Assembly: GCA_937922705.1 (NCBI GenBank)
Contig: CALAIW010000026.1
Span: 1 to 64,000 of the forward strand
Reading direction: 5' to 3'
DNA length: 64,000 nucleotides
Source: an uncultured bacterium
Lineage (GTDB): Bacteria; Atribacterota; Atribacteria; Atribacterales; Caldatribacteriaceae
Shown here: positions 12,100 through 16,990 of the stretch, one piece after another
How positions within the stretch are numbered: position 1 is the stretch's first letter
Layout: every line of letters starts with the position of its first letter
Position numbers and translations under genes: made by a program
Notes under the pieces: generated by a model
The model's database searches: none
Seen by the model: the letters and a program-made list of their open reading frames with translations, nothing else
What the model was told of the DNA's origin: nothing

Positions 12100-13072
12100 G
12101 GTAATCCACCACCTGGAATGTCCGTAGTCTCCTGTTGGTTGAGGGCAAAAAGACGCACTCTACCGGAAAGGCAAAATCGGGCTGGATTCTCCCCCGAGAA
12201 AGCCAAAAGCGTGAGAGGTCGTTACGGTAAATCCCCAAATTGGCACGGATAAAAAGGGTTATCGGGGCGTCAACCAAAACAACCTGGGAAAGTTCAGGGA
12301 GAGCCGCCAAAGCATCAATAATACGCTTTCGAAGCGATTCCTCTGGAAGGGGAAAAACATTCACCAGGGCAATATTCTCCGCCAGTGGTCCAATAATGGT
12401 GACATTGGCGATATCCCTGGGATAGGATGCCTCGTCAAGGAGACGCAAAAGCAAAGCATTGGCTTCAACAACGGCCTTTCCGTGATAGTTAGGGACAGCA
12501 AGAGGTTTCAAGAGGTGTTTCAGGTAACACCCTTCCCGAACTCGGTTTTCCCCAATACGACGAATAGGTATGCCAAAGCGTTCCACCAAAAAAGCGATGT
12601 CTTCTTTGGTGAGGTCAAAAAGCGGCGAGAAGGTGTCACCCAAGAGTTTTACCCCCCGGTGTCCCCAGCTATCGCTCTTGTTCGCTCCACCGATGATGAG
12701 CGTACCCTCTTTAAAGTACTCGCGAATGCGCCCAAGCTTTGCCCTTTTCGTGCAGAGGTTACACGATGGACCACCTCGGGCAACCTCCTCAAGGGCGTCT
12801 TGTCCCGGGATGTACACATGCTCCACTCCAAAATACTCCACAAGGAAAGCGATGTTTTCCCGTGCTTTTTCCGGAAGGTACGGACCCCAATCAACCGTAC
12901 AGGCAAGGACCTTAGAGCGGCCGAGGGCTTCGATGGTACAAAAGAGAGCCAGGGTGCTATCCATCCCCCCAGAAAAAGCTACCACCACCCTACGGAAACG
13001 CGAAGCTACCTCTCGAATCTCCTCAAGGATGGTGGTGCAAGAGGGTACTCTCTCTGTAAAGGGAACACTCAT
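12083..13072 (-). CDS. LarE-like PP-loop ATPase
   Basis: A 329-residue protein of the PP-loop ATP pyrophosphatase superfamily. AFSGGMDSTLALF near residue 34 is the PP-loop that binds ATP. GPSCNLCTKRAKLGRI resembles the conserved cysteine region of LarE, the sacrificial sulfur transferase for the nickel-pincer cofactor, and GGANKSD is the usual second nucleotide motif. The C-terminal 120 residues are not like LarE and I do not recognise them. No larB or larC is in the window, so the substrate is open; sulfur insertion or tRNA thiolation are both possible. The ATG overlaps the rpsA stop (ATGA). Confidence 0.7.
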   Translation of the reverse strand: MSVPFTERVPSCTTILEEIREVASRFRRVVVAFSGGMDSTLALFCTIEALGRSKVLACTVDWGPYLPEKARENIAFLVEYFGVEHVYIPGQDALEEVARGGPSCNLCTKRAKLGRIREYFKEGTLIIGGANKSDSWGHRGVKLLGDTFSPLFDLTKEDIAFLVERFGIPIRRIGENRVREGCYLKHLLKPLAVPNYHGKAVVEANALLLRLLDEASYPRDIANVTIIGPLAENIALVNVFPLPEESLRKRIIDALAALPELSQVVLVDAPITLFIRANLGIYRNDLSRFWLSRGRIQPDFAFPVECVFLPSTNRRLRTFQVVDYRVAQW

Positions 13073-15006
13073 TTTTTCAGGTTGTGAAGAATTGTGGTCA
13101 GCTTTTCCCCAATGAGGTCACCCAAAGTAACACGGCTATCCTGAGCCTGTTCTTTGCGAGCTTTCTCTTCTTCCTCTTTGAGAGCTTGCTTAATACTCAG
13201 ACCAATTTTCCGCTCCGCATCATCGAGCTTAATGATTTTAACCTTAACAATGTCACCCTCTTTGAGGACATCCCGAGGGGAACTTATCCGCTCTTCGGAG
13301 ATTTCTGAGATATGCACCAGACCATCCCAACCCTCTTCAAGTTCTACAAAGGCTCCAAAGTCTACAATCCGGACAACCTTCCCCTCGTGAATGCTTCCCA
13401 GAGGATACCGTGCCTTGACAATCTCCCAGGGGTCAGGAAGCAGAGCCTTCCGGCTCACCACGATGCGCTGCTCTTCAGGTTTAAGTTCGATAATCTTCAA
13501 AGAAACGGTCTGCCCTTTTTTGAAAACCTGACTTGGATGCTTTACTGCTTCCCAGGCGATTTCTGAAAGGGGAAGAAGCGCCTCAACTTCGGGAGCAACC
13601 TCCACAAAAGCACCAAAATTCATAAGACGCTGGATTTTCCCCTCCACCACATCGCCCACCTTCCACTGTGCCGCGATGCTCTCCCAGGGATTGGGGCGAA
13701 GCTGGCGCAAACTCAAGGTAAGCTGGCGGCTTTCCCGGTCAATGGCAATAACCTTAGCCTCTACAAGCTGATTCCTTCGGACCACGTCGTTCACCCGAGT
13801 GACACGTTTCCAGGAAAGTTCCTCAAGAGGAATGCGCCCTTCAACACCTTCTGTAACCTCTACAAGGGCTCCCCGAGCATTAATTTTATGCACCCGGACA
13901 CGGACTGTACTCCCAATGGGATACTTTTCCTCGATGTCCTCCCATGGATCGGGGAAAATCTGCTTCAGCCCAAGAGAAAGCCTCCGGCGCTCAGGGTCAA
14001 GCTCTAAGACCTTAGCCTCCACAATCTCGCCAACTTTCACCACTTCCCGAGGATGCTTCACATACCCCCAGGAAAGGTCCGAGATGTGGATGAGCCCTTC
14101 AACACCCTCCTCAACCTCCACAAAAACGCCAAAGTCCTTCAGGGAAACAACCTTCCCTTTCACCGTATCGCCAACCTTGACTTCCTGGGCAAAGCGTTCC
14201 CAGGGGTCAGGGGTGAGGCGTTTCAAGCTCAGACTGATTTCTTCCTTTTCCGGATTCCAGCCAATGACCTTCACCTCAATCTCGTCGCCCTTCTGAAAGA
14301 GGTCTTCAAGCTTCCCTACCTTCCCCCAGGAAACCTCAGAGATGTGGAGGAGTCCGTCAATACCCCCAAGGTCGACAAAGACACCAAAGTTTGTGATGTT
14401 TTTGACAATACCTTTACGGACCTGACCAACCTCAAGAGAAGCAATGGTTTCCTGACGGCGACGAGCAAGCTCCTCTTCAATTAACGCTCGACGAGAGACG
14501 ATGACATTACGGGTCTTGCGGTCAGCTTCGATAACTTTAACCTCAATAGTCTCGCCAATGAGTTCATCGAGGTTGCGAGGAACGACATCCACACAAGAAG
14601 CAGGAAGAAAAGCATTAACCCCGACATCAACAATAAGTCCACCTTTGACCTTCCGCTTGACCTTGGCAAGAAGGGGTTTGCCTTTCTCTTTGCTCTCCTC
14701 TATATCAATCCAGGCTCCCTGGTAGCGAGCTTGCTCCCGGGAAAGCCATACATATCCCTGGTCGTCAATTCGAGTCACCATGACCCAAATTTCTTCGCCT
14801 TCCTGGAAATCGTGCTCCACCTCTCCTTCACGACCCTGTGCCCGCTCCCGGAAAGGAAGAATACCCTCAGCTTTGTAATTAATATTTACGAAATACCCTT
14901 CCTCGCCTTTTTTGATAACCTTTCCTTTGATGAGATCACCGGGGCGCACCATGCGGATTTGCTCGAGGTTCTCGTGGAGCAATTCCATAGCCTTTTCATT
15001 TTCCAC
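13069..15006 (-). CDS. rpsA: ribosomal protein S1 homologue with seven S1 repeats
   Basis: A 645-residue RNA-binding protein made almost wholly of S1 (OB-fold) repeats. I count seven. They are headed by PGDLIKGKVIKKGEEGYFV, GKPLLAKVKRKVKGGLIV, VGQVRKGIVKNITNFGVFV, VGDTVKGKVVSLKDFGVFV, IGSTVRVRVHKINARGALV, VGDVVEGKIQRLMNFGAFV and LGSIHEGKVVRIVDFGAFV. E. coli S1 has six and many Gram-positive homologues four. Repeats 1 and 2 are the least canonical, as in the ribosome-binding repeats of S1. A short acidic/basic tail follows. The start at GTG 15006 sits eight bases after AAGGAG and is preferred to GTG 15015. Confidence 0.9.
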   Translation of the reverse strand: MENEKAMELLHENLEQIRMVRPGDLIKGKVIKKGEEGYFVNINYKAEGILPFRERAQGREGEVEHDFQEGEEIWVMVTRIDDQGYVWLSREQARYQGAWIDIEESKEKGKPLLAKVKRKVKGGLIVDVGVNAFLPASCVDVVPRNLDELIGETIEVKVIEADRKTRNVIVSRRALIEEELARRRQETIASLEVGQVRKGIVKNITNFGVFVDLGGIDGLLHISEVSWGKVGKLEDLFQKGDEIEVKVIGWNPEKEEISLSLKRLTPDPWERFAQEVKVGDTVKGKVVSLKDFGVFVEVEEGVEGLIHISDLSWGYVKHPREVVKVGEIVEAKVLELDPERRRLSLGLKQIFPDPWEDIEEKYPIGSTVRVRVHKINARGALVEVTEGVEGRIPLEELSWKRVTRVNDVVRRNQLVEAKVIAIDRESRQLTLSLRQLRPNPWESIAAQWKVGDVVEGKIQRLMNFGAFVEVAPEVEALLPLSEIAWEAVKHPSQVFKKGQTVSLKIIELKPEEQRIVVSRKALLPDPWEIVKARYPLGSIHEGKVVRIVDFGAFVELEEGWDGLVHISEISEERISSPRDVLKEGDIVKVKIIKLDDAERKIGLSIKQALKEEEEKARKEQAQDSRVTLGDLIGEKLTTILHNLKK

Positions 15007-15083
15007 ACCCAACACACTCCTTCCTCACAGTGTGACCCCGCCGCTGTCGTGTGTCAACCGCTTTGATCCTCGTCCTCCAAAAA

Positions 15084-15213
15084 GTGGGTGCCCTCTCAAG
15101 GAAGCCGCAGCTTCCCTGAAGTCCGGGCTCCCTGGACAAGGGTGTTGGGTCAAAGCCTCATTTGACATCACGGGCAGGGCAGGGTCACAAACCGAGACTT
15201 CTTCCTCAGGGAA
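15084..15213 (-). ncRNA. candidate structured leader or small RNA upstream of rpsA
   Basis: Downstream of a good promoter on the - strand, about 130 bases hold several designed-looking structures. A 6-bp hairpin GTCAAA/TTTGAC spans 15166-15149. A GGAAGC-TGCG-GCTTCC hairpin lies near 15116-15101. Two CCCTG boxes face two CAGGG boxes in nested order, and CCCTGAGGAAG at the 5' end can pair with CTTCCTTGAGAGGG at the 3' end. That long pairing would compete with the TGCG hairpin. A run of five T (15083-15079) follows. The rod-like closing resembles 6S RNA, but it is shorter and I cannot confirm conserved 6S positions. It could equally be an rpsA leader for autoregulation. Confidence 0.35.
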
Positions 15214-15242
15214 ATAATAGCACAAGCTATCCCCTTTTGCAA
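15214..15242 (-). promoter_or_regulatory. promoter upstream of rpsA leader
   Basis: On the - strand: TTGCAA (15242-15237), a 17-base spacer and TATTAT (15219-15214). It begins just after the aspS stop and should drive the leader and the rpsA-to-pilD genes independently of the upstream synthetase genes. Confidence 0.65.
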
Positions 15243-15247
15243 CGAAA

Positions 15248-16990
15248 CTATTTTCGGCTCCCTTGAAGGGTAATGCCAAGGACGTCAAGCTGCTCCCGGG
15301 TAACCGGTGCAGGCGCACCGGTAAGAAGACATACACCCTTTTGGGTCTTTGGAAAAGCAATAACCTCCCGAATAGAATCCTCTCCACACATGAGCATAAC
15401 TAAGCGGTCAAAACCAAGGGCTATTCCTCCATGGGGAGGGCAACCGAACTGCAATGCCTCAACAAAAAAGCCGAACTTCTCGCGAATTTCATCCTCGGTG
15501 AGGCTTAAAAGGGTGAAGATTTTCTCCTGGAGGTCCCGCCGATGGATTCTGATACTCCCCCCTCCCACTTCGTATCCATTGAGGACAAGGTCATAGGCCT
15601 TCGCCCTGACTCGCGCTGGATCGGTATCAAGAAGCGGGAGATCTGCATCAAAGGGTGCAGTAAAAGGATGGTGCACCGAAACCCAGCGGTTTTCCTCTTT
15701 GCTCCACTCAAAGAGGGGGAAGTCTAAAACCCAGGTAAAGGCAAAGCGCTCTTTCTCTTCAAGGTCTTTACCGATACGTACCCGAAGCTCCCCAAGAAAC
15801 TCCTGAAGCGCCTCCTCTTCCCCCCAGGAAAGGAGAAGCACCGAGCCTTCCTGAAAGGGATACTGGGCTACAAGGCGCTGGAAAAGGGAATCGGAGATTT
15901 TCCCTTTCAGAGGCGAGGAAAATTCCTCCTGGGTTTTCCGAACCCAGGAAAAGGAAAGATGCTTATCCTTTGCTTCCTGGGCAAGGGCATCGAGTTTCTT
16001 CCTCGAGAACCCATGGTCCTGAGGAACAAAAAGACCCCGTATGGCTACATGCCCTCCAAAGAACTTTTCTCCCTCTTCGAAGAAAAGGGGGGTAAGGTCA
16101 TCAATGGGGAGGGCAAAGCGAAGATCAGGTTTATCCGTCCCATACCGCTTCATAGCCTCTTCATAGGAAAGGCGAGGAAAAGGAATTGTAAGAGAAACCC
16201 CAAGAACCTCGGCGAAGAGAACCTGCATGAGCTCCTCTACAAGTTTCATAACATCCTCTCGATCCACAAAAGACATCTCAATGTCTACCTGGGTGAACTC
16301 AGGTTGTCGATCAGCCCGGAGGTCCTCATCACGGAAGCAACGGACAATCTGAAAGTAACGATCAAAACCAGCAATCATGAGAATCTGTTTGAAAAGCTGT
16401 GGCGACTGAGGAAGAGCGTAAAACGACCCAGGATTCAGGCGACTTGGCACGAGAAAATCACGAGCTCCTTCAGGAGTACTTTTCGTAAGGAAGGGCGTCT
16501 CAACCTCTATGAAACCCCGAGAATCAAGGAAACGACGAATAGACTGAGCCGCTCGGTGACGGAGGAAAAGATTCTCTTGCATTCTGCGGCGTCGCAAATC
16601 GATGTATCGATACCGAAGACGAAGGGATTCATCCACCTCTTTTTTCCCCTCAATTTCAAAAGGAGGAAGCTCCGAAGGGGAAAGGATTTCAAGGGATTCT
16701 GCATGCACCTCAATCTCACCAGTAGCCAGGCGTGGGTTTGCAAACCCTTCCGGACGCTTTTGCACCACACCCTTTACCTGTACGACGTATTCAGGGCGAA
16801 GAGCAGAGGCAACCGCATAAGCCCTGGCGTTTTTGGAATCCACCACCACCTGGGTTATCCCCCAGCGATCCCGGAGGTCAAGAAACACAATTCCCCCGTG
16901 GTCTCGCATTCGATGCACCCAGCCAGCAAGAACCACTTCCTTCCCCACATCAGTCTGCCGAAGCTCCCCACAGGTATGCGTTCTCAGCAT
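15248..16990 (-). CDS. aspS: aspartyl-tRNA synthetase (bacterial type)
   Basis: A 580-residue class IIb synthetase. It has an N-terminal OB-fold anticodon-binding domain (VLAGWVHRMRDHGGIVFLDLRD), the catalytic core with motif 2 FRDEDLRADRQPEFTQ, the inserted bacterial GAD domain at about residues 290-420, and motif 3 GIALGFDRLVMLM. Length and insertion identify the bacterial subtype. Whether it also charges tRNA-Asn cannot be decided by eye. Its ATG overlaps the hisS stop by seven bases, a linkage of hisS and aspS common in Firmicutes and Atribacterota-like genomes. Confidence 0.97.
   Translation of the reverse strand: MLRTHTCGELRQTDVGKEVVLAGWVHRMRDHGGIVFLDLRDRWGITQVVVDSKNARAYAVASALRPEYVVQVKGVVQKRPEGFANPRLATGEIEVHAESLEILSPSELPPFEIEGKKEVDESLRLRYRYIDLRRRRMQENLFLRHRAAQSIRRFLDSRGFIEVETPFLTKSTPEGARDFLVPSRLNPGSFYALPQSPQLFKQILMIAGFDRYFQIVRCFRDEDLRADRQPEFTQVDIEMSFVDREDVMKLVEELMQVLFAEVLGVSLTIPFPRLSYEEAMKRYGTDKPDLRFALPIDDLTPLFFEEGEKFFGGHVAIRGLFVPQDHGFSRKKLDALAQEAKDKHLSFSWVRKTQEEFSSPLKGKISDSLFQRLVAQYPFQEGSVLLLSWGEEEALQEFLGELRVRIGKDLEEKERFAFTWVLDFPLFEWSKEENRWVSVHHPFTAPFDADLPLLDTDPARVRAKAYDLVLNGYEVGGGSIRIHRRDLQEKIFTLLSLTEDEIREKFGFFVEALQFGCPPHGGIALGFDRLVMLMCGEDSIREVIAFPKTQKGVCLLTGAPAPVTREQLDVLGITLQGSRK

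Follow-up and report, generated by a model that had tools for sequence, protein, structure and literature searches.

The window, a stretch of 64,000 nucleotides from an uncultured bacterium of the genus Caldatribacterium (Atribacterota), carries on its minus strand aspS (15248–16990), a 6S RNA gene (ssrS, 15188–15031) and rpsA, which encodes ribosomal protein S1 (13069–15006). The S1 protein shares 90% identity with that of Candidatus Caldatribacterium, the nearest named genomes. Translation of rpsA probably starts at the GTG at 15006, where GTGGAA is kept in relatives and lies at a good distance from the Shine-Dalgarno sequence GAGGAAGGAG (15017–15026), and not at the upstream GTG at 15015 of the mechanically called reading frame.

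Scanned with Rfam, the entire window gave two hits that pass the curated cut-offs: a tRNA at 1132–1204 and the 6S RNA (RF00013, 6S/SsrS) at 15188–15031, which scored 63.8 bits where 46.4 is required. The alignment spans the full model (positions 1–187), whereas the antisense strand scores only 24.4 bits. With 158 nucleotides for 187 model positions, the RNA falls short of the model mainly in its apical arm, and its score is moderate. In the same scan no Rfam leader family matched at 15188–15031, and the 1.85-Mb genome contains a single 6S copy. The first-pass annotation had offered two readings of a structured RNA in front of rpsA, a 6S-like RNA or a leader through which S1 regulates its own synthesis, to be separated by a covariance search against Rfam and an alignment of relatives. 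The former was right, with RF00013 supported by score, structure, covariation and promoter; 15188–15031 is almost certainly the 6S RNA gene of the genus, which folds into a rod and has a predicted extended −10 promoter of its own immediately past aspS. The rod architecture of closing stem, central bubble and apical stem, the full-length match and the separate promoter are all shared with other members of the family; rpsA directly downstream sets the window RNA apart.

The extent of the RNA had been given as 15207–15079. That a structured RNA lies here was correct, but its right-hand end was not, as the RNA continues 48 bases further to 15031. The stretch 15207–15031 has a predicted folding energy of −88.7 kcal/mol (z = −5.8), equalled by none of 200 shuffled sequences. 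By itself, 15207–15079 folds no better than chance (z = −1.2, with 24/200 shuffles equally good) because it omits the 3′ arm of the closing stem, which reaches to 15031; this 129-nt unit was therefore rejected as a complete RNA. The 5′ arm of the closing stem (15162–15188) pairs with about 15059–15032 in helices 1–3, and the 3′ arm (15031–15059) lies entirely beyond the end first assigned. The perfect hairpin AGGGAAGC-TGCG-GCTTCCTT proved to be the apical stem (15096–15119, TGCG loop). The CCCTG/CAGGG boxes and the TTTTT run (15079–15083) are likewise present in the sequence. The run had been read as the end of the RNA; according to the RF00013 alignment, however, it sits on the 3′ side of the central bubble, and the terminator scan returned no terminator-like site.

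Covariation among relatives supports this rod. Across 21 sequences of the same order, 98.1% of the cells in the 48-pair structure are paired, and pairing falls to at most 49% when partners are slid by 1–3 columns. The compensatory changes sought by the first-pass annotation are plentiful: two-sided changes occupy 98 cells, carried by 18 pairs, as opposed to 27.5 cells in shuffles, in an alignment that was fitted to the structure and hence leans towards it. A plain MAFFT alignment, which is not fitted in this way, gives a similar outcome (16 pairs with two-sided changes). The apical stem is the best covarying helix (8/10 pairs). These pair counts exclude one alignment containing mixed-in antisense matches. 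Family f3 shows a further outer stem, in which GGGTTT of the 5′ flank pairs with AAACCC of the 3′ flank, but inspection by eye did not find it shared by the other families. That the hairpins merely arose by chance in G+C-rich DNA, as the shuffle-like folding of the 15207–15079 piece might suggest, can be dismissed given the z-score of the full RNA, its passing of the curated Rfam cut-off and the covariation across relatives.

The promoter proposed earlier is present on the minus strand at 15242–15214, where the −35 element TTGCAA (15237–15242) follows directly on the aspS stop codon and is separated by 17 bases from the −10 element TATTAT (15214–15219), which is preceded by TG-N and thus of the extended −10 type. 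All 19 tabulated loci of the order contain TTG(A/C)AA-17-TATTAT with the same TG-N, and variants with identical spacing and TG occur at 21 other loci of the phylum, so that the promoter is conserved in 40/40 tabulated loci. Within the order, the −10 element ends 18–31 bases ahead of the 6S 5′ end, which would probably give the primary transcript a 5′ leader of about 11–24 bases. In the window, the predicted leader comprises 15189–15207, with a start near 15207 estimated from the −10 element, and would be either removed or left unpaired.

Canonical 6S RNA mimics an open promoter, competes for RNA polymerase holoenzyme and is released upon synthesis of a short product RNA (PMC12005410, PMC8876501). 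The predicted product-RNA template of the window RNA occupies 15144–15157, and the product starting at 15144, GUUGGGUCAAAGCC (opening bases GUUGGGUC), closely resembles the published product RNA of B. subtilis 6S-1, GUUCGGUCAAAACUA (PMC12005410). Furthermore, a potential 8-bp helix closes the bubble, formed by CCUUGUCC (15134–15141) and GGACGAGG (15075–15068). In relatives, 94.6% of its cells are paired with 7 two-sided changes, a modest statistic in that 45/500 shuffles match its number of pairs with such changes. A similar helix has been inferred for the collapse of the central bubble in B. subtilis and Aquifex 6S RNA (PMC8876501), but the window helix is also predicted in the free RNA.

By homology with these systems, the window RNA would bind the holoenzyme of RNA polymerase and the housekeeping sigma factor as an imitation of an open promoter, restraining the enzyme while growth is slow. 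Once nucleotides are available again, transcription by the polymerase from about 15144 along the 5′ side of the bubble would yield the short product RNA; the rod would then refold, probably via the bubble-closing helix as in B. subtilis and Aquifex, and the 6S RNA would be released. One promoter probably yields both the 6S RNA and the rpsA messenger, with the 6S RNA cut or trimmed from the shared transcript. The sequences themselves show family membership, fold, covariation, promoter, adjacency and the lack of ygfA in the order, whereas polymerase binding, product RNA, shared transcript and processing are what we infer for the window locus.

The Rfam model identified 6S RNA in 43 of 61 genomes of relatives, and a model derived from sequences of this order recovered it in 3 further order members. 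In one genome without a match (G009), the contig (L139) opens within the 3′ arm of 6S, immediately ahead of rpsA, so this absence is an assembly matter. More generally, draft contigs break in or near the 6S gene (L139, with contig ends close by in L005, L007 and L008), and some 6S absences are thus assembly breaks. At the loci of the order, rpsA lies downstream of 6S in 19/19 cases and aspS upstream in 18/19 (the exception being G007), while hisS and larE flank the aspS-6S-rpsA unit wherever the fetched stretch extends far enough. In the rest of the Atribacterota, aspS also precedes 6S in most loci with a sufficiently long contig; here, however, ygfA, encoding 5-formyltetrahydrofolate cyclo-ligase (PF01812), is located between 6S and rpsA, giving the arrangement aspS-6S-ygfA-rpsA (L002–L019). 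PF01812 was found in none of the 25 genomes of the window's order as opposed to 21/25 of the others in the phylum; among the four exceptions in the latter group, 6S lies close to a contig end in two, and in the other two no 6S was found either. The order has apparently lost ygfA, which would most simply account for 6S and rpsA lying in contact. The RNA itself also differs in length, measuring 221–236 nt in the other Atribacterota families (L002–L019) vs. 156–159 nt in the window's order, a difference located in the apical arm.

Proteobacteria and some Firmicutes are known to have 6S linked to ygfA (PMC9130861, PMC7641849), and a ygfA-type gene lies downstream of or overlaps 6S on the same strand in 24 of 100 loci from outside the phylum. 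Adjacency to aspS was rejected as a general trait, occurring in 0/100 loci from other phyla. It is described for B. subtilis (PMC11077062), and among about 30 Clostridia loci, 6 have aspS beside 6S; in five of these 6, tcdA lies downstream. B. subtilis 6S-1 (bsrA) resembles the window RNA in its position downstream of aspS (PMC11077062), its nearly identical product-RNA template and its potential bubble-closing helix (PMC8876501); unlike the window genome, B. subtilis has yrvM (tcdA) downstream and possesses a second 6S RNA. The ssrS-ygfA unit of E. coli likewise has a protein gene following 6S on the same strand, and E. coli 6S RNA is processed from the transcript (PMC7641849). The other Atribacterota have the same ygfA neighbour, whereas the genomes of the window's order lack ygfA and have rpsA instead.

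The contact with rpsA is close. Throughout the order, 6–24 bases separate the 6S end from the rpsA Shine-Dalgarno sequence, which begins at base 7 in the genus and at bases 19–25 in other families. No terminator-like site was found between 6S and rpsA in a simple scan; read-through into rpsA is therefore likely, and the two probably share a transcript, a reading which draws on that scan and leaves room for a further rpsA promoter. An rpsA promoter within the 6S 3′ arm was considered and rejected, as the TTGACA found there is explained by its pairing with TGTCAA; a good −10 element follows this TTGACA in families f3 and f4 only and not in the window. In these two families, TATAAT or CATAAT at the 6S 3′ end is a possible rpsA promoter. 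In genus g8 (L035, L036, L038–L040, L042), a perfect TATAAT overlaps the 6S end (GGGGCTATAATTCG) and could serve as a separate rpsA promoter.

Its placement immediately before rpsA, in the same orientation and within this short distance of the Shine-Dalgarno sequence, would also suit a cis-acting leader through which S1 protein represses its own synthesis by switching between two folds. This second reading of the first-pass annotation is very improbable. The structure belongs to the 6S family and is not specific to rpsA leaders, since the same family precedes ygfA in other Atribacterota. The rival fold, a 5′-3′ pairing said to exclude the TGCG hairpin, appears only in the truncated piece and is an artefact of the RNA having been cut short; the complete RNA pairs over long range through its closing stem, which forms alongside the hairpin. 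In addition, the Shine-Dalgarno core and the start codon of rpsA are unpaired in the predicted fold of the precursor, so no occlusion of rpsA is predicted and a hidden Shine-Dalgarno core was discarded as a candidate.

A 6S RNA that doubles as a working 5′ leader of rpsA, such that polymerase binding or leader processing affects the supply of S1, fares better and yet is unlikely. It fits the contact kept at every one of the order loci examined as well as RIP-seq data from B. subtilis, where 6S-1 extended by the aspS and yrvM messenger still binds the holoenzyme (PMC11077062). The contact is, however, already explained by the loss of ygfA, conserved pairing of the rpsA Shine-Dalgarno region was not seen, and families f3 and f4 may transcribe rpsA from a promoter of its own at the 6S 3′ end. 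Under the corresponding evolutionary scenario, which we consider similarly doubtful, the order turned 6S RNA into the regular rpsA 5′ leader after losing ygfA, thereby coupling polymerase sequestration, 6S maturation and S1 supply on one transcript. Given a real contact without a terminator, some cis effect of 6S on rpsA may nevertheless exist.

The locus is thus that of an ordinary 6S RNA whose neighbour is lineage-specific, in a phylum that has received little study. 6S RNA is now documented across the Atribacterota, a phylum never named together with 6S RNA in the literature searched. Outside the window's order, the arrangement aspS-6S-ygfA joins the aspS neighbour of Bacillota with the ygfA neighbour of Proteobacteria, a combination that hints at an ancient origin for both linkages. 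The order itself, with rpsA in the place of ygfA, would be a natural experiment on whether the gene sharing a transcript with 6S matters.
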